Source: an uncultured Spartobacteria bacterium (GTDB lineage: Bacteria > Verrucomicrobiota > Verrucomicrobiia > Chthoniobacterales > Terrimicrobiaceae). Taken from it: a DNA stretch of 56,324 bases. Below, in pieces: positions 7,382-40,545 of this stretch. The notes beneath the pieces were generated by a model, which saw only the letters and a list, made by a program, of their open reading frames with translations, had not been told where the DNA came from and made no database searches. Position numbers and translations under genes: made by a program. The stretch covers positions 1-56,324 of the forward strand of contig CALFPA010000034.1 of assembly GCA_937919825.1 (NCBI GenBank), given 5' to 3'. How positions within the stretch are numbered: the first letter of the stretch is position 1; each line of letters starts with the position of its first letter.

Positions 7382-8728
7382 CTAAATGGCAGCGGCAAGC
7401 CGCTTGAAAAAGGCGAAATCCGGCTTCGCCAAATCCTCGGAAACCTCGCTTGGCCAGAGGTGAAATTTCTGCGGGATTGCGAATCGCTCCAGGCGAGCGG
7501 CGAGGAATTGGCGGACTTCTGCTTCTAGAAAATCCCCCGCGAGAAACGCCACCGGCCTCTCGCCAAAATCGGGGTCGGATTTCCCAACCACCACGGCACG
7601 GCGGACTCCTGGGATTTCAAGGAGGAACGACTCGATGGTCTCAGGCTGAATATTTTCGCCACCGGAGATGATCAAGCGGTCGCGGCGGCCTTGGATCACG
7701 AGATGTCCCTCGGCAGTGAAAGCTCCGAGGTCGCCCGTGCAAAACCACCCCTCAGCATCCGGCAAATCCTCCCAGAGTCCCTCCGGCCCGAGAGATTTTT
7801 TAGCGAGAATCGGACCACGAATTTGAATTTCCCCCGCATCGGAAATCCGAACCTCGCGGCCGGGAAGCGGGGCGCCAGCATGGAGAGGATTTGGCGTCTC
7901 CAGTAACCGCTCCGTCGTGCAAATCTGCGACGCGGACTCCGTCATGCCATAAGTAAGGTGGAGCGGCACGCCCGCACGGATGGCGCGATCGACAAGGCAA
8001 GACGGAATCGGCCCCCCGCCTACCAAAACAGCCTGAAGTCGATCCAGCGGAGCACCCGAGTCGAGCAAGCGTTGAAGCTGTGTGGGAACGAGAGAGAGGT
8101 GTGTGACAGCATCATCCTCGGTCGCATTTTCGGAATCCGAAAAAACAACAGCCGCGCCGGAGAGAAGGCAGCGGATGGGAATCGAGAAACCGCTGACATG
8201 ATTCAAAGGAAGTTGGAGCAACCAACCGCAGCCAGGCCCAAGCGGCAGGCGGAAAGCCGAACCCTCAGCGCTGGCGATGTGAGCGGCGAGGTCATGCCAA
8301 ACAACTCGAGCCCGTCCGCTGGAGCCGGAGGTTTGAAGGAGCGTGCCGGGCGAGTGCATTTCTTGCAGGAGGGTCCTGCTTGTCAGGACCGGACCGGCAT
8401 TTGCGGCTAGATCAATTCGGCTCTGACAAGCAGAGCCCTCCTGAGTCCAAAGTTCCTTCGCACCCAAATGGCGTGCGCGATCGATCGCCTCGGCTTTTGG
8501 TAGACGAAAAGAAATTGGCGCGACCAAAGCTCCTTGCTTCAGAGCCCCAAGGAGAACCAGAAGATGATCGAGCGAGGTTTTGGCCCAAGTCGCCACCACT
8601 CCTCCCGGCGTGACGGGCAAGGATTGCTCCAACTCCGAGTAACGAATCACGCGTCCGCTAGCGCGGTCGATCAATGCGGGTTCATTCCCAAATCGGGCGA
8701 GGTCAGAGAAGAACGAGTCGGGATTCAT
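7382..8728 (-). CDS. menE: o-Succinylbenzoate-CoA ligase MenE, with in-frame palindromic insert
   Basis: A 448-residue member of the ANL adenylating superfamily that makes OSB-CoA from o-succinylbenzoate, ATP and CoA. The phosphate loop reads LLQTSGSSGRARVVWH (about 130-145). The A5 motif TYGMTESASQI and the A7 motif WFCTGDLG follow; the C-terminal domain carries RRDRLIISGGENIQP. The start is ATG 8728, since the longer frame to 8947 would run inside menC. It overlaps the 3' end of menC by 26 bases. Residues 97-121 are encoded by a palindromic element and lie just before the phosphate loop. A C-terminal catalytic Lys is plausible at LAKPDF. Confidence 0.88.
   Translation of the reverse strand: MNPDSFFSDLARFGNEPALIDRASGRVIRYSELEQSLPVTPGGVVATWAKTSLDHLLVLLGALKQGALVAPISFRLPKAEAIDRARHLGAKELWTQEGSACQSRIDLAANAGPVLTSRTLLQEMHSPGTLLQTSGSSGRARVVWHDLAAHIASAEGSAFRLPLGPGCGWLLQLPLNHVSGFSIPIRCLLSGAAVVFSDSENATEDDAVTHLSLVPTQLQRLLDSGAPLDRLQAVLVGGGPIPSCLVDRAIRAGVPLHLTYGMTESASQICTTERLLETPNPLHAGAPLPGREVRISDAGEIQIRGPILAKKSLGPEGLWEDLPDAEGWFCTGDLGAFTAEGHLVIQGRRDRLIISGGENIQPETIESFLLEIPGVRRAVVVGKSDPDFGERPVAFLAGDFLEAEVRQFLAARLERFAIPQKFHLWPSEVSEDLAKPDFAFFKRLAAAI
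8366..8442. repeat. Palindromic element inserted in frame in menE
   Basis: Two 25-base arms (8367-8391 and 8418-8442) are inverted copies with four differences, separated by a 26-base centre. Each arm is itself a hairpin: GGTCCTG-CTTGT-CAGGACC in the left arm and GGCTCTG-ACAAG-CAGAGCC in the right arm, each a perfect 7-bp stem with a 5-base loop. In menE it is translated as 25 residues beginning EGSACQSR and ending LTSRTLL. A second copy of the same architecture and length lies in menD. Confidence 0.9.
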
Positions 8729-9620
8729 CAATGGCGGGAAGCGGTTGATCGGCGCGGAACACAAAACCAGAAAGATCGAGCCGATTCGTAAGAACATCCG
8801 ACTCCAAGCGGGAGTAGGTGTCGAGACCGGCCGCAGAAATCCTCGGAAGGGAGGCGGCGAATCGGCCGAGGGTATGGATTCCGACCCCAGACTCGTAAGC
8901 GGCGCTGACGACCGAGGCCATTCCAAGCCGTTCGCCTTCGCGGGCAAATTCCCGGCAATGCTGGAAGCCTCCCATGAGCGTGGGCTTCAAAACCAAGACA
9001 GCGGCTCCCTGAAATAACGCCAAATCGGCAGGAGAGATTTCGCGAAGGGTTTCGTCCAGGGCGATGGGACAAGCCGCACGGGCGATCAACTCCGGGAGTC
9101 GTTGGGCATCGGTCAGTGGTTCCTCAAAATACTCGATCGGGAAATCCCGCAGACTCTCCGCGATGCGGAGGGATGCCTCGAAGGTCCAAGAGCGATTCGG
9201 ATCGAGGCGAAGCTGGCAAAGACCCTCTGTCTCGCGGGTGATGTCGTTCAGCAAGTCAGGGAGGCGCGCGACATCGACTCCTGAGGTTTTGATTTTGAGG
9301 CAACGGCAACCCTCGCGATAGACACGAACGGCCCCAGCGAGGATTTCTTGGGCATTTCCATCCAGAAGGGCATTCAGCGGAACTTCCTTTCGGAGGGGAA
9401 CCCAATCCCCCTCCAGCGCCTCCCGAGCACATCGGAGCGAGGCGGGGACGAAATCCTCGGAACCATGCAAACACGCCTCCACCTCCTTGAGCGTTTCACG
9501 ACTCCAACCGGGCAGAGGAGCGGCGTCTCCCCAGCGGTTTCCTTGGCGAAGCAAAATCCCCTCACGACATCCACCATCCCTGAGCGGGAGGCGGTAGAGA
9601 TAGGCACGCGGAGGATTCAC
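8703..9620 (-). CDS. menC: o-Succinylbenzoate synthase MenC
   Basis: A 305-residue member of the enolase superfamily, dehydrating SHCHC to o-succinylbenzoate. The family acid-base Lys pair appears in CLKIKTSG, and metal ligands occur in RLDPNRSW (Asp), YFEEPL (Glu) and IALDETL (Asp); a second Lys is in VLKPTLMGG. Length is normal for the family. The start is GTG at 9620, overlapping the menA stop by 4 bases (GTGA). The 3' end overlaps menE by 26 bases. Confidence 0.9.
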   Translation of the reverse strand: MNPPRAYLYRLPLRDGGCREGILLRQGNRWGDAAPLPGWSRETLKEVEACLHGSEDFVPASLRCAREALEGDWVPLRKEVPLNALLDGNAQEILAGAVRVYREGCRCLKIKTSGVDVARLPDLLNDITRETEGLCQLRLDPNRSWTFEASLRIAESLRDFPIEYFEEPLTDAQRLPELIARAACPIALDETLREISPADLALFQGAAVLVLKPTLMGGFQHCREFAREGERLGMASVVSAAYESGVGIHTLGRFAASLPRISAAGLDTYSRLESDVLTNRLDLSGFVFRADQPLPAIDESRLVLL

Positions 9621-10492
9621 ATCAGCAGAAATACCGAAACCATGATCGCAAGAAACAGACTGGAGGTTCCGGCATGTGGCAGGAGGTCATTGATCACGCG
9701 GGGATCGCGAAGGCGGACCAATGGGCCACCAACGCGGAGAGCCGAGAGAAAGGCGGCCATGGCGCAGAGCCAACCTCCGCCGTGGAATTGCAGAACGAAA
9801 AGCGGAACCACCGCTGGCACGAATAGGAAGAAGAGGATTTCAATGCGCGCAAATTTTTCGCCGAAGCGGACGGCGAGCGTTTTTTTATTCACCCGCTGAT
9901 CGGTGGCGCGGTCGCGGAGATTGTTCAGGGCAATCAGGACGACGGAATAGCAACCCGGCATGACGCCCAGCAGAACGGAATCGGAGGAAAAGCTCAGCGC
10001 TTGCACGAAATAGGTTCCCGCTGTGGCTACGAGCCCGAAGAAGAGAAAAGTGAAAACCTCGCCGAGTCCGAGGTAGGCCAGCGAGAATGGTCCGGCGGTG
10101 TAGAGAATTCCGAAAAGGATCGAGGCCATGCCGATCGCCACCACAGGCCAGCCAGCGCGGAGCGTCAGAAAAACCCCCGCCGCGGTGGCGAGGAGAAAAA
10201 AGAAAACCATCCCGAAAAAAACGGTGCGGGGTTGGAGCAAGCCCGAGGCCGTGACGCGCACCGGGCCGAGGCGGTCGGCGGTATCGGCGCCTTTTTTGGC
10301 GTCCCAGTAGTCGTTTGCGAGATTTGTGGCAATCTGGATGCAAATCGCCCCGAACAAAGCGGCGAGCGCGGCGGGGAGGTTTCCCTTCGATTGCGAGAAT
10401 GCCAAGGCGCTGCCGAGGAGAACCGGCGCGACGGCAGCGAACAGGGTTTTCGGGCGACTCGCGAGCACCCAGGCTTTGAGCGTGGCGCTCAC
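9617..10492 (-). CDS. menA: 1,4-Dihydroxy-2-naphthoate polyprenyltransferase MenA
   Basis: A 291-residue integral membrane UbiA-family prenyltransferase with 8 to 9 hydrophobic segments. The Asp-rich prenyl-diphosphate site is seen in [15 protein letters not shown] (about 60-75), and a second in the cytoplasmic loop [14 protein letters not shown] (about 190-205). It joins DHNA to the polyprenyl tail to give demethylmenaquinone. The start is GTG at 10492 ([16 protein letters not shown], the usual MenA opening), overlapping the menB stop by 4 bases. Confidence 0.92.
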
Positions 10493-11313
10493 GGGCGCTT
10501 GGGGAATTTGCTGAAGTCAGGTTTGCGTTTTTCGACAAACGCATTCCGGCCCTCCTGCCCCTCCTCGCTCATGTAGTAGAGAAGCGTGGCGTTCCCGGCG
10601 AGTTCCTGAAGTCCGGCCTGGCCGTCGCAATCGGCGTTCATCGCGGCTTTGAGGCATCGAATGGCGAGCGGGGATTTCTCCAAAATCTCGCGACACCATT
10701 TGACCGTCTCGATTTCGAGTTCGGCGTAGGGGACGACGGTGTTGACCAGTCCCATGCCGAGGGCCTGCTGGGCATCGTAGGTGCGGCAGAGAAACCAAAT
10801 TTCGCGGGCTTTTTTCTGGCCCACGATCCGGGCGAGGTAGCTCGAGCCAAAACCTCCGTCGAACGAGCCCACGCGAGGACCGGTCTGGCCGAACTTGGCG
10901 TTGTCAGCGGCGATGGTGAGGTCGCACACGACATGAAGCACATGACCGCCCCCGACCGCCCAGCCAGCAACCATGGCGATGACGGGCTTCGGGCAGTTGC
11001 GAATCTCGCGCTGGAAATCGAGGACATTCAGGCGCTCGACGCCGTGATTGTCGGCATAGCCGGCGTCACCTCGGATTTTCTGGTCGCCGCCGGAGCAGAA
11101 GGCGTGCTCGCCCTCGCCGGTGAGGATGATGACGCCGATCGAGGAGTCATCGCGGGCCTCTTGCAAGGCGCGGCGCATCTCCTCGACGGTCAGTGGACGG
11201 AAGGCGTTGCGGCGCTCTGGGCGGTTGATGGTGATCTTCGCGATGCCTTCGGCTTTTTCATAGCGGATGTCCTCAAAGGTTCCGGCGGGTTTCCAATCGC
11301 AGGCGGGTTTCAT
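10489..11313 (-). CDS. menB: 1,4-Dihydroxy-2-naphthoyl-CoA synthase MenB
   Basis: A 274-residue crotonase-fold enzyme closing the second ring from OSB-CoA. It shows the family hallmarks [14 protein letters not shown], the oxyanion-hole segment [14 protein letters not shown], and [19 protein letters not shown], followed by [18 protein letters not shown], highly typical of MenB as opposed to other crotonases. Its length matches the family. The start is ATG 11313, and menH ends 9 bases upstream. Confidence 0.95.
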
Positions 11314-11322
11314 AGCGCGAAA

Positions 11323-12132
11323 TTAACGACGGGGCGTGGAGGGGCCAATGCCGAAGTTGGCGGGCAAAAAGTCTACCACCGCGCGGGCGAGTTCGAGTGG
11401 CGCTTCCTCCAGAAGGCGGTGGCCGCAGGCGGGGAGGATTTGGGTTTTGGCGGAACGGAAGGATTCCGCCATGCGGCGGGCGAGGAGGGAGTATTTCGAA
11501 TCAGCCTCGCCGGCGAGAATGAGGGCATCGCCGAGATAGGCAGGAAGTTCGTTCCAGAGAGAGGGCAAAACGCCAGGACTCCATGTCTCCAAAACCTCGG
11601 CCAAGGCGGCGGGGTTTTGAGTGCTGCGGGAGGCGAGGAATTCGGAGGAGGTTTTTTTCTTTGGTGATTCGAAGATCGGAAGATTCCACCAATCGTGAAG
11701 GAAGGACTCGAAGGATTCATCGCGGAGACGCCGGGCGAGTTTGGCATCGGCTTCGCAGCGGGCGTTTCTTTCGACGGGATTTTCAATTCCAGCGGTAGTG
11801 GAAATTCCGATGAAGGCTGGGAATCGCTGAGGATGTTCTATCGCAGCCGCGAGGGCGAGGCGACCACCGAGCGAGTAACCAGCGAGGGCAGCGCGAGAAA
11901 TTTGGGCGGCGTCCAATGTCTCGCAGAGCCGGGCGGTGAAGTTTTGTGGCGGGATGGAAACGGATTCGCCATGACCAGGCAGGTCGGGCAGGAGAATTTG
12001 GATATCGGGGCGCAGGCGCTGGAGTTCCTGGGCGAAGAGAATCCAGTCGATGCCAGTGCCGAGAAAGCCGTGGAGGCAAACGAGGGTTGGCCCGCCTTTC
12101 GGGCCGAGGGTTTGGAATTTCAGCGTTTCCAT
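11323..12132 (-). CDS. menH: Alpha/beta hydrolase, probable SHCHC synthase MenH
   Basis: A 269-residue alpha/beta hydrolase with the oxyanion strand CLHGFLGTGIDW, the nucleophile elbow AGYSLGGRLAL (Ser about residue 92) and a late catalytic His in PACGHRLLEEAP. In this context it is expected to eliminate pyruvate from SEPHCHC to give SHCHC. ATG 12132 is preferred over the in-frame GTG at 12138; it overlaps the 3' end of menD by 13 bases. Assignment as MenH rather than a generic hydrolase rests on its place between menD and menB. Confidence 0.82.
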   Translation of the reverse strand: METLKFQTLGPKGGPTLVCLHGFLGTGIDWILFAQELQRLRPDIQILLPDLPGHGESVSIPPQNFTARLCETLDAAQISRAALAGYSLGGRLALAAAIEHPQRFPAFIGISTTAGIENPVERNARCEADAKLARRLRDESFESFLHDWWNLPIFESPKKKTSSEFLASRSTQNPAALAEVLETWSPGVLPSLWNELPAYLGDALILAGEADSKYSLLARRMAESFRSAKTQILPACGHRLLEEAPLELARAVVDFLPANFGIGPSTPRR

Positions 12133-13808
12133 TTCCACTCGCGCTGTGAAATGCGGCGCGAAATTTCCAAATGAAGCGCGTGGTTGGCGGCACGGTCAGT
12201 GCGGCACTCGATGAGGCGGGGACCGCGCGGCGGTTGCGAGAGCAAATCGGCCAGCGCGGGGATGTCAGCGGCGCGGTGGTATTCGAGCCCGAACTGGGCG
12301 GCGGCATTTGAAAAATCCATGCCATGGGGCGTTTCCCAAAACCTCTCTCGTTCGGCAGGATCGATTCCCAGCGGGAGGAATTGGAAGATTCCACCGCCGT
12401 TGTTGTTCACCACCACGAGCGAAACCGGTTCACCCCGGAGGAGCGCAAGGGAATTGAGATCGTGAAGAAGTGTCAGGTCGCCGATGAGGGCGGTGATAGG
12501 TTTTCCGGCACCTGAGCAAATGCCCGCGATAGTGGCGATGTTGCCGTCGATGCCGCTGGCGCCGCGGTTTCCTAGGATTTGGGTGGGATGCGAAGATTTG
12601 GATTCCACGCAGGAATTAAAATCGCGCACGGGCATGGAATTTCCGAGGAAGAGAAGAGAGGAACTGGCGGCGACGGCGCGGGCGATGGAGGGTTCGGAGA
12701 GTTGATTGGTTTCCAAAACCTCGCTGAGAATTTCGGATGCGGCTTGGTTGGCCTCGATCCAGACATCCCGCCAAACCGATTGGGGTTGGATGGAAAGGGA
12801 ATCCAGAAACTCGGGAATGCCCGCGCAGACGATGGTTGGCGATTGGTGCCAAGGATCGAGGTTTTCGGGGAAGCGGCGGACTTGGAGATAATTTTCGCCG
12901 CGACAGTTCACCATCCATTCGCCGAGGCGCTTGGAGACAAGGCTGCCGCCGAAATGGAGGACGCGCTCGGGGGCGGGAACATTTCGGCTTTGGAGAATCC
13001 AATCAGCGTGACCGATGACACCGGGAAGTTGCCTCGCGCCAGAGAGGCCGTCGGCGATCAAGGGCCAGCCGAGGCGGTTCGAGAGATCGAGCAGGAGCGC
13101 GGCGTCAGGTTGTTCGGAGAGAGGGAGGCGTCCAACGAGAATCACGCCGTAAGGGGAATCGAAAAAATGGCCGAGGAGGGACCTGCTTGTCAGGTCCGGG
13201 GAGGCTTTCGAAATATCACCGATCCGGCTCTGACAAGCAGAGCCCTCCTCCCAAGGCACGGATTCGCCATCAGCTAAAAGTTCGGGCAGAACGGGCTCGG
13301 GGAACGGGACATTCAAGTGAACCGGACCCGGGTTTTCGCCTGTGGCGGAGGCGGCGAGATTTTCGAGAATGGCCGGGAGTTGGTTGAGATCGCCGGGGCT
13401 GGGAAGGTCAACTTGGGCTCGCACGAACGAGCCAAAGATTCCGGGTTGGTGGATCGTTTGATTCGCCCCCGTGCCGCGAAGTTCCGGTGGGCGATCGGCT
13501 GTGACGAAAATCAGCGGGATACCCGAATGGAAGGCCTCGACGCAGGCTGGCAGCAGATTGGCGACAGCCGAGCCACTGGTGGTAATGCAGACTGCTGGGC
13601 GGCCTGTGGCCATGGCCCATCCGAGCGCGGCAAAGGACATTCCTCGCTCGTCATAGTGGATCGTGGAATCGATTCCCTCCTCGACGACAGCGGCCACCAG
13701 AGACGATCCGCGGGCTCCGGGACTGATGAAAACACGCCCGGCTCCGAGTTTTTGGAGTCCGCAAACTATGGCTCGGCCCCAAGTGCGGTTCGAGCACGGA
13801 GGAGTCAT
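12120..13808 (-). CDS. menD: SEPHCHC synthase MenD, with in-frame palindromic insert
   Basis: A 562-residue ThDP-dependent enzyme that couples isochorismate and 2-oxoglutarate. The N-terminal domain shows FISPGARGSS, HYDERGMSFAALGWA and TTSGSAVANLLPAC; the ThDP site reads GDLTLLHDLNSLALL, followed by VVNNNGGGIFQFLP. The start is ATG 13808, overlapping menF by ATGA; the longer frame to 13859 would lie within menF. Residues 188-212 come from the palindromic element and fall at the junction between the N-terminal and central domains, a place where extra residues are likely tolerated. Confidence 0.92.
   Translation of the reverse strand: MTPPCSNRTWGRAIVCGLQKLGAGRVFISPGARGSSLVAAVVEEGIDSTIHYDERGMSFAALGWAMATGRPAVCITTSGSAVANLLPACVEAFHSGIPLIFVTADRPPELRGTGANQTIHQPGIFGSFVRAQVDLPSPGDLNQLPAILENLAASATGENPGPVHLNVPFPEPVLPELLADGESVPWEEGSACQSRIGDISKASPDLTSRSLLGHFFDSPYGVILVGRLPLSEQPDAALLLDLSNRLGWPLIADGLSGARQLPGVIGHADWILQSRNVPAPERVLHFGGSLVSKRLGEWMVNCRGENYLQVRRFPENLDPWHQSPTIVCAGIPEFLDSLSIQPQSVWRDVWIEANQAASEILSEVLETNQLSEPSIARAVAASSSLLFLGNSMPVRDFNSCVESKSSHPTQILGNRGASGIDGNIATIAGICSGAGKPITALIGDLTLLHDLNSLALLRGEPVSLVVVNNNGGGIFQFLPLGIDPAERERFWETPHGMDFSNAAAQFGLEYHRAADIPALADLLSQPPRGPRLIECRTDRAANHALHLEISRRISQREWKWKR
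13173..13249. repeat. Palindromic element inserted in frame in menD
   Basis: It has the same build as the menE copy: 25-base arms at 13174-13198 and 13225-13249, with a 26-base centre of unrelated sequence. The left arm forms GGACCTG-CTTGT-CAGGTCC and the right arm GGCTCTG-ACAAG-CAGAGCC. The right arm is identical to that in menE, while the left arm differs but keeps full pairing. It is translated in MenD as 25 residues beginning EGSACQSR and ending LTSRSLL. The opposite strand is also open in the equivalent frame (EGPACQVR to LTSRALL). Confidence 0.9.
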
Positions 13809-15136
13809 GGCGCGAGCAGATGGAGAACGCCGGCGATTTTGTCCTCCAACTCGTTCCACTCGCGCTCGGACTCGGAACCATCAACGATGCCCGCGCCGGC
13901 ATAGACATGGGTTTTTCGTCCCAACCAGAGCATCGATCGGATCGCCACGGCGAATTCGGCCTCGTCGCGAGAAACAAATCCCACCGGCCCCGCATACCAA
14001 CCTCGGTCGAAGGGTTCATTCTCGGCGATAAAGCGGGCGGCAGCGGCACAAGGGGAACCGCATGTGGCCGGCGTGGGATGGAAGGCGCGCAGAATCGCGT
14101 CGTCCCCCACCCCGTCGTTGAGTTGTCCAGCAATGGCGGTGCGGAGGTGTTGGACACGGGAGAGCTTGAGGACGCTTGGCGCGGTGTCTTGGGAAAATTC
14201 CGCGCAGAGTTCGCTGAATGTGGTCTCGAGCGAATCGACAACGAGGCGGTGCTCGAGTTGCTCCTTGGACATTTTGAGGAGTTGGGATTCGAGGCGTTCG
14301 TCCTCGACCGTATCGAGGCTACGGGGGCGCGTGCCGGCGACGGCCTCACTTTCAAGTCGCGAGCCTTCGCGGCGGAAAAGGAGTTCGGGGCTGGCTCCGA
14401 GGAAGGCCCCGGAGTTGGCCGTGGGCTGGAGGCAAAAGTGAAAACATGCCGGCGCACCGCCTGCGAGAATCTCGACCAGCGCAAATGGCGTGATGGTTTC
14501 CGTCAACTCCAGACAGGACTTGCGGGCGAGAACGACTTTTTGGAGGGAGCTGCCTTGAAATTCCTGCAAGGCATGGTCGACGGATTGCGACCAACTCGAG
14601 AAGTTCGGTTGATCCCAGCGCGTGAGCACGCCTGGACGCGGTGCCGAGCCGGTGTCGCCAAGCCTTTCGATCCATTGGGAGACATCGGAGAGATCGGTTT
14701 CGTTATCGGAAAGATTGACTGCCAGCGTGGTGCGACCGCCGGAGCGGATGATCTCGGCTTTTGGCACGAAGAAATATTCGTCAGGAAAATCGGCCCAATC
14801 ACTGCTTTTGTGCGAGGCGGCATCGAAGCGGCAGCCGCCAAAAACACGAATGCCCGAATCGCCGTCGTCGAGAATTTCGAGCAGGTCGGCGAGACTCCCG
14901 AAGGCTGCGGATCCCATGGCGAGGGTTTGGTCGCCGCCCGAGCGAGAACGCCAAAAGAAGCGTGGAAAAAGCGGCGCGCGGTCCAGCCAGCGGGGTGAGA
15001 AGAGGCCCTCGTCCTCGAGCGTCCATTCGATGCGGCGAATGCCCGAGGCCAGCGGGCGAGAGGAGCGGTGTGGGGCGTGAAGGTCGTTGTGCCGCCCGAT
15101 GCGGAGGGCGGATTGTGACGGCGCGGCGGGTGTCAT
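13805..15136 (-). CDS. menF: Isochorismate synthase MenF
   Basis: A 443-residue chorismate-using enzyme. The C-terminal catalytic domain carries KVVLARKSCLEL, GASPELLFRREGSRLESEA, AGTRPR, the HPTPATCGSP motif and RGWYAGPVGF, all standard in MenF/EntC isochorismate synthases. It feeds isochorismate to MenD and is the first gene of the men operon. The start is ATG 15136, with 84 bases to the divergent thioesterase gene, a stretch that must hold both promoters. Confidence 0.92.
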   Translation of the reverse strand: MTPAAPSQSALRIGRHNDLHAPHRSSRPLASGIRRIEWTLEDEGLFSPRWLDRAPLFPRFFWRSRSGGDQTLAMGSAAFGSLADLLEILDDGDSGIRVFGGCRFDAASHKSSDWADFPDEYFFVPKAEIIRSGGRTTLAVNLSDNETDLSDVSQWIERLGDTGSAPRPGVLTRWDQPNFSSWSQSVDHALQEFQGSSLQKVVLARKSCLELTETITPFALVEILAGGAPACFHFCLQPTANSGAFLGASPELLFRREGSRLESEAVAGTRPRSLDTVEDERLESQLLKMSKEQLEHRLVVDSLETTFSELCAEFSQDTAPSVLKLSRVQHLRTAIAGQLNDGVGDDAILRAFHPTPATCGSPCAAAARFIAENEPFDRGWYAGPVGFVSRDEAEFAVAIRSMLWLGRKTHVYAGAGIVDGSESEREWNELEDKIAGVLHLLAP

Positions 15137-39567: not shown

Positions 39568-40545
39568 ATGTCCGGATCCGTCAGCGACTACCAATACAAC
39601 CTCCCCCCGGAACTCATCGCCAATCGCCCCGCCCTCCGGCGCGACGACTCGCGCATGATGGTCATCCACCGCAAAACGGGAGTGATCGAACACCAAACTT
39701 TCCGCGACTTTCCATGCCACCTTCTCGAAGGCGATTTAGTGACTTTGAACAACTCGCGTGTCATCAAAGCCCGACTCCTCGCTGAGCCTCTGGGCATCGA
39801 GGTTTTCCTTCTCGAAAATCTTGGTGACTCCCGCTGGAAATGCCTTTGCAAACCCGGCCGCAAACTTCGCATCGGCACGCGCATTCCGATTGCGGGAACT
39901 TCAGCCGAGGTTCTGGAAATCCTCCCCGGCGGCGAGCGTATCATGAGCTTCGACTCGCCCCCCGATCTCGAGACCCACGGCCACATGCCCCTGCCCCCCT
40001 ACTTCAAACGCGCCGCCGACTCGGCCGATGACGAACGCTACCAGACCGTCTATGCCAAAGCCTCCGGCTCCGTGGCCGCGCCCACCGCAGGACTACATTT
40101 CACTCCCGAAATCCTCGCCACGATTCCCCACACTTTTCTCACCCTGCATGTCGGCGCCGGCACCTTTCTTCCCGTCAAAACCGACCGCCTCGAGGACCAC
40201 GAAATGCACGAGGAATCCTACTCTATTCCTCCCGAGTCCGCCCTCTCCCTCCAGAGCGCCCGTCGTATCGTCGCCGTCGGCACCACCGTCACCCGCGTGC
40301 TGGAATCCCAGCCGCCCGGTCGCATCCAGCCCTGTTCCGGCGCCACCCGCATTTTTATTCATCCTCCCTACCAGTTCCAACACACCGGCGCGCTTCTCAC
40401 CAACTTCCACCTCCCCGGCTCCACCCTTCTGATGCTCGTGAGCGCTTTCGCCGGTCGGGAACTCATCCAGACCGCCTACGCCGAAGCCATTCGCAAACGC
40501 TACCGTTTCTTTTCCTACGGAGACTGCATGCTCCTCACGGATTAA
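39568..40545 (+). CDS. queA: tRNA preQ1(34) S-adenosylmethionine ribosyltransferase-isomerase QueA
   Basis: A 325-residue enzyme that builds epoxyqueuosine at wobble position 34. The start VSDYQYNLPPELIANRPAL and DSRMMVIHRKTG are the QueA opening; GDLVTLNNSRVIKARLL, YQTVYAKASGSVAAPTAGLH, TLHVGAGTFLPVKTD and LLTNFHLPGSTLLMLVSAFA are strongly conserved motifs. Length is slightly short of the usual 340-350. Its 3' end overlaps the convergent hydrolase gene by 11 bases. Confidence 0.96.
   Translation: MSGSVSDYQYNLPPELIANRPALRRDDSRMMVIHRKTGVIEHQTFRDFPCHLLEGDLVTLNNSRVIKARLLAEPLGIEVFLLENLGDSRWKCLCKPGRKLRIGTRIPIAGTSAEVLEILPGGERIMSFDSPPDLETHGHMPLPPYFKRAADSADDERYQTVYAKASGSVAAPTAGLHFTPEILATIPHTFLTLHVGAGTFLPVKTDRLEDHEMHEESYSIPPESALSLQSARRIVAVGTTVTRVLESQPPGRIQPCSGATRIFIHPPYQFQHTGALLTNFHLPGSTLLMLVSAFAGRELIQTAYAEAIRKRYRFFSYGDCMLLTD

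Follow-up and report, generated by a model that had tools for sequence, protein, structure and literature searches.

We analyzed a window of 56,324 nucleotides, the whole stretch of DNA presented, which carries a cluster of men genes read from the minus strand. A repeat of 78 bp lies inside menD, which encodes an enzyme of vitamin K synthesis, and the features of the locus are as follows.

12120-13859, minus strand: menD (2-succinyl-5-enolpyruvyl-6-hydroxy-3-cyclohexene-1-carboxylate synthase; E. coli MenD 2jlc, E 1.1e-83)
13173-13250, plus strand: REPIN-type element, 78 bp, copy inside menD (covariance model match, 93.9 bits)
13179-13197, plus strand: left REP hairpin GGACCTG-CTTGT-CAGGTCC, preceded by GAGGAG (13173-13178)
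13198-13225, plus strand: centre, 28 bp, asymmetric and loosely conserved
13226-13244, plus strand: right, inverted REP hairpin GGCTCTG-ACAAG-CAGAGCC, followed by CTCCTC (13245-13250)
7382-8986, minus strand: menE open frame (AMP-binding enzyme), likely ATG near 8728, holding the second copy
8366-8443, plus strand: second element copy, in frame within menE
8703-15136, minus strand: remainder of the men cluster (menC, menA, menB, menH-like gene, menD, and menF)
8703-9620, minus strand: menC (open reading frame checked with Pfam)
9617-10492, minus strand: menA (named from reading the sequence)
10489-11313, minus strand: menB (named from reading the sequence)
11323-12138, minus strand: menH-like gene (named from reading the sequence)
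13805-15136, minus strand: menF (named from reading the sequence)

From end to end, the repeat consists of AGGAG, a CTTGT-loop hairpin, 28 bp of centre, a second hairpin in inverted orientation, and CTCCT. As the original prediction had it, there are two copies with matching arm and centre lengths (25-bp arms and a 28-bp centre in both) and different centres; their right arms, described as identical, share the same bases inside but differ at the outermost one. The arm hairpin, GGnnCTG-CTTGT-CAGnnCC, has a perfect 7-bp stem and a 5-nt loop, and the two hairpins stand in inverse orientation, 47 bp apart in almost every full copy, with an asymmetric centre between them whose consensus is near GGRGCGGYTTTCGCAAACACACCGATCC. 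The tagged arm strand is written AGGAG-GGACCTGCTTGTCAGGTCC. AGGAG was invariant across 22 copies, and GGAG was the commonest tag 5' of hairpins across the loci sampled, a set drawn from around the element.

The DNA fold of the whole element was far better than that of shuffled sequences (z = -6.2, with 0 of 200 shuffles as good), and the RNA hairpins were very stable (about -45 to -61 kcal/mol, z of -5 to -9). A lone strand has as its lowest-energy fold a long arm-to-arm hairpin (about -48 kcal/mol as RNA). Covariation was measured in a gapless alignment of 22 copies from which most orthologous duplicates had been removed. Within the arms, at two variable stem positions per arm, 97.7% of the 30 double-change cells were paired, a level reached by none of 500 shuffles; between the arms, the same alignment gave 4 cells and no excess over shuffles. 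One long palindrome was thus ruled out as the conserved structure, because left-right pairing fails exactly at the variable stem positions, and since the covariation lies inside the arms and not between them, the element is a REP doublet (REPIN). What had been described as a palindrome with a centre is present as a doublet, but each of its two arms is an independent, self-complementary, REP-like hairpin, the two being inverted relative to one another and not required to match.

These data also bear on whether the element is a classical MITE, that is, a deleted DDE-type insertion sequence whose arms are terminal inverted repeats and which is moved by the transposase of that element with target duplication. 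The inverted terminal repeats and the short length would suit such an origin. However, the arms covary internally, which DDE terminal repeats do not need, and their complementarity to each other is lost at the variable positions; moreover, no constant target duplication was visible at the copies compared. We consider a MITE improbable.

The exact pattern GGNNNTGCTTGTCANNNCC, searched with no demand that the N positions pair, matched 26 times in the own genome (G000) versus 0 times for a reversed-pattern control, and exact right-arm cores were found 11 times (control, 0). With the covariance model, we found approximately 16 elements in this 2.7-Mb genome, approximately 15 in MAG LacPavin_0818_WC45_MAG_58_13 (G003), at least 18 good copies and further weaker ones in REEB449 (G004), where one subfamily is 79 bp long, and 1 in Terrimicrobiaceae HJW.13 (G001). 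These were the 4 genomes with strong matches among 58 related genomes; the remaining 12 congeners scanned gave zero or weak matches only. At least nine places are filled in both G000 and G003, while some are private and some are common to G004. Over all shared copies, the arms were 7.1% different, the centres 11.8%, and the flanks 11.3%, and for the menD copy in G000 and G003 the differences amounted to 0 of 50 arm positions, 6 of 28 centre positions, and 8.7% of the flanks. Copies occur between genes too, in both orientations; about 4 of the approximately 16 copies in the own genome lie within genes recognized by Pfam, and most have no recognizable gene around them. Approximately 73 bp adjoining three copies (G000:C50:43241-43372 [L044], L238, and L166) is also repeated (TACCAACGGCTGTTTGCTTTTGGATTCTTTATCGGATCAGTGATTTATTCC), which suggests a larger composite repeat.

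The exact arm pattern was searched for in 84,980 species genomes, and outside the genus it was essentially confined to Thermogutta sp. MAG-77 (Planctomycetota), which had over 60 matches; a lone match in Treponema looks like chance. The arms in MAG-77, GGAGGGACCTGCTTGTCAGGTCC and GGGCACGACAAGCGTGCCCCTCC, have the same flank, stem plan, and CTTGT loop, and they form doublets with GGGCACG-ACAAG-CGTGCCC. By the same measure, the hairpins there are spaced at about 53-54 versus 46-47, and often several stand in a row; the loci L148, L157, and L207 are dense arrays of this REP type.

REPs are usually described as extragenic. Eight genes backed by Pfam carry the element: menD, menE, an RMMBL/DNA ligase fusion (G000 and G003), a P-type ATPase gene (G004), valS (G003), gcvP (G004), a Ser/Thr kinase gene (G001), and a GcvT-like gene (G000 and G003), the last with a partial element. 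In the ligase fusion, a 906-amino-acid open reading frame (L048:5028-7748) in which a metallo-hydrolase RNA-specificity domain (RMMBL) is joined to an ATP-dependent DNA ligase, the element lies between both parts. Within genes, the element amounts to 26 codons without a stop in the phase used, giving a full-length host protein with a 26-residue insert, and in the cases compared the insert sites were a variable linker or turn. The encoded peptide, [QE]EGxACQxR...LTSxxLL, is the same from either orientation; the menD copy encodes EEGSACQSRIGDISKASPDLTSRSLL, and EEGSACQSR and IGDISKASPDLTSR are among the peptides predicted from the translated element. By open reading frame analysis and Pfam, all eight intragenic copies are in codon phase 0, which bears out the earlier statement that both men copies are phased for translation. 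Of 44 readings of the aligned copies, 40 were open in phase 0, 36 in phase 1, and 2 in phase 2, so that eight of eight in phase 0 has a P of about 0.006 if phases 0 and 1 are equally usable, a bias based on eight events. Phase-1 open reading frames across the element were rejected as intragenic cases: in those that matched Pfam or NCBIfam, the element precedes the domain, lying 5' of pyrC in one case and of a polyA polymerase-like gene in the other.

The original prediction had proposed a mobile element selected for harmless protein insertion. Its spreading is supported by the copies, the sister sets, and the presence/absence differences, but selection for harmless insertion is not, because only about 4 of approximately 16 copies in this genome lie in Pfam genes, and for sites that are variable linkers a filter of purifying selection is enough. 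If tolerated translation had shaped the length, the open frames, and the peptide of the element, a length of 78 bp, a multiple of three, a common peptide from both orientations, and the use of phase 0 in all eight genes when phase 1 is about as open would be expected. Most copies, however, lie outside recognized genes, G004 has its 79-bp subfamily, survivorship of tolerated insertions accounts for the open frames, and the bias rests on eight events, which leaves this proposal unlikely. Positive selection is unneeded for the in-frame state in MenD, and the phase-0 bias is the one observation that scatter and loss of harmful insertions leave unexplained.

A cis-regulatory RNA of the men operon (an attenuator, riboswitch, or processing signal) that overlaps the genes would agree with the very stable hairpins and the two copies in one operon. 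We regard it as very unlikely, since the element also occurs within unrelated genes (ligase, ATPase, valS, gcvP, and kinase) and between genes, in both orientations, and menD of the congeners is without the element. A search of Rfam with the element gave no family matches.

In MenD, the insert comprises residues 204-229 if the GTG at 13859 is taken as the start, or 187-212 if counting begins at an in-frame ATG 17 codons downstream, the latter fitting the residues 188-212 given earlier. It lies between the Pfam domains TPP_enzyme_N (26-138) and TPP_enzyme_M_2 (236-400). An AlphaFold model of MenD, based on the window and locus sequences, was confident (mean pLDDT of 80.5, pTM of 0.83) apart from residues 172-202, the only stretch with a pLDDT below 50; in the numbering of the model, the insert covers residues 186-211. 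The element is thus predicted to sit in an unstructured interdomain linker. From EPLL/EPVL to GVVVIGRL, this linker has 50 residues here, about 38-41 in element-free congeners, and about 50 in E. coli, in which there is no repeat. Palindrome-free relatives were therefore not uniformly as long in this region: the congeners are shorter, at 38-41 and not 24 residues, but E. coli is as long. Because the net gain over the element-free congeners is only about 9 residues, the insert displaced native linker, which was either deleted on insertion or eroded later, and by this comparison the 26-residue element in MenD is not a plain addition. That it is a native MenD linker merely resembling the repeat, as the total length of MenD near that of its relatives might suggest, is refuted by the 50 arm bases that match the dispersed family at approximately 15 other places in the genome and by the unrelated, shorter linkers of the congeners.

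Orthologues of ValS, GcvP, and MenE showed insertion polymorphism. In ValS, the element is present in G003 and absent from G000, the N-terminal parts being 98% identical, and the G003 protein exceeds its relatives by a net 28 residues, located in a variable turn ahead of the C-terminal coiled coil, where congeners have AP(Q/V/A)GH. GcvP of G004 carries the element in a linker (about 26 to 28 additional residues), while G000 and others are without it and most congeners have a short native stretch there. As far as the alignments indicate, the ValS and GcvP insertions are closer to simple addition than that in MenD. At the same position in GcvP, G003 has a different canonical REPIN, GTAGGGCAGGCGTCCCGCCTGCC...CGGGCGGGACGCCCGCGCTAC (L309), and at the menE site, where G000 has the element, G003 has a REP doublet, AGGAGTGTGGGCGTCCCGCCCACC...GGGGGCGGGATGCCCGCTCTCCT, with AGGAG/CTCCT ends and other hairpins (L293). 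Thus, the same linkers have been taken by different REPIN families in related species. No clean empty site was found at window position 40541 (G003 C28:63371), in MenE, at the kinase locus, or at C27, where the flanks are too diverged.

A separate observation concerns RAYT domains within tRNA synthetases. In two species (G003:C4:12222-15665, L231:2223-5669; G008:C147:24172-26181, L277), valyl-tRNA synthetase contains an in-frame RAYT transposase domain of approximately 200 residues that has HUH and Tyr motifs and is flanked by GTAG REPs; valS is uninterrupted by a RAYT in G000, whose flanking ValS is 98% identical, and in the other congeners with a complete valS. A related RAYT (approximately 45% identical) lies in frame in leucyl-tRNA synthetase (G012:C186, L099; G009:C403, L106), bounded by the REP peptides GTGVPPV and TGGTPVLP.

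The look-up of a RAYT in the own genome, proposed earlier, gave one, but of a different REP family. This Y1-type gene (G000:C123, L039:2280-3200; 148 residues, apparently intact) is flanked on both sides by GTAG REPs (GTAGGGGCGGCTCGCCGAGCGG), of which the genome has approximately 18-20 copies, and it was therefore ruled out as the cognate enzyme. Beside the RAYTs of the genus that were examined (G003, G004, and others), no CTTGT REP was found, and Thermogutta sp. MAG-77 was ruled out as the source of a cognate RAYT because Y1_Tnp had no match in it. In G004, G008, G009, and G012, one RAYT type has REPs on its flanks with GGGAGC ahead of them. These resemble the Pseudomonas GTGGGAGC REPs, which contain the same letters but use GTGG as their tag, so that GGAG would be at most a candidate guide to the RAYT. 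The 5' tetranucleotide matters for RAYT cleavage (PMC8266576), and RAYT-cognate REPs carry a GTAG or GTGG tag 0-2 nt ahead of the palindrome (PMC6006769, PMC3686654). Neither a perfectly clean empty site nor an excised circle nor a target duplication was seen, so for the CTTGT REPIN family we infer both the transposition step and the enzyme that carries it out.

With inverse hairpins at near-constant spacing, internal compensatory change, dispersed copies, and presence/absence polymorphism, the element was filed as REPIN-type; it was not filed as a RAYT-cognate REP sensu stricto, since the GTAG/GTGG tag is absent and no RAYT with CTTGT REP flanks was found in the genomes examined. REPINs and BIMEs are REP doublets that lie mostly outside genes (Bertels and Rainey 2011, PMC3116915). 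Like them, the element is an inverted hairpin pair of 70-80 bp with fixed spacing, a less conserved spacer, dispersed copies, and compensatory changes; unlike them, it has AGGAG instead of GTAG/GTGG and many in-frame intragenic copies, and no RAYT gene with this REP on its flanks was found. Di Nocera et al. (2013, PMC3733652) described intragenic REPs with GTAG or CGTC tags, dimers that are translated in frame into 20-30 residues within unrelated genes. The GTAG type was most numerous in the verrucomicrobium Opitutus terrae, with a DNA ligase among the hosts; in other species, tRNA synthetases were hosts. The tag, stem, and loop of our element differ from theirs, and no CGTC tag is evident in its arms. 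The same authors drew a parallel between REPs and the Rickettsia palindromic elements, short palindromes in frame in many unrelated proteins (PMC3733652). In-frame insertion in unrelated genes is common to these and to our element, whereas ours is a hairpin doublet in a verrucomicrobial lineage known from environmental MAGs. In-frame intragenic REPs, including those of Verrucomicrobia, were thus already known in 2013; what is new is the family, with AGGAG as its flank where GTAG/GTGG would be expected, its lack of a RAYT that carries it, and its presence in two phyla.

Overall, the element is probably a non-autonomous mobile repeat with REPIN anatomy that is tolerated as a linker insert. A single-strand HUH transposase of the Y1 type, acting in trans, would recognize each folded arm and copy the doublet elsewhere, on the model put forward for RAYT/REPIN pairs. 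Insertions would be broadly scattered; selection would retain intergenic ones and those that enter a flexible linker in an open phase, and the loss of harmful ones would leave a patchwork of intergenic and linker copies. In MenD, the insert may have taken over a linker free of constraint, some of which was later lost. A more far-reaching reading, which we put forward tentatively, is that of an AGGAG-tagged REPIN class in two PVC phyla that is mobile despite having no RAYT of its own, with its insertion into proteins directed to a single codon phase and to recurrent linkers.

These results show in-frame entry of this REPIN family, and of REPINs related to it, into conserved enzymes (MenD, MenE, ValS, and GcvP), and sister species provide before-and-after pairs for tolerated protein inserts. 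They bear on whether the codon phase is the choice of the element or the outcome of selection, and on what moves a REP without a GTAG tag. For annotators, peptides such as QEGSACQSR...LTSRALL, GTGVPPV, and VGQASRLSP are REP derived and are not conserved motifs. If the recurrent-linker reading is true, these genomes would repeatedly build protein linkers from REPIN sequence.
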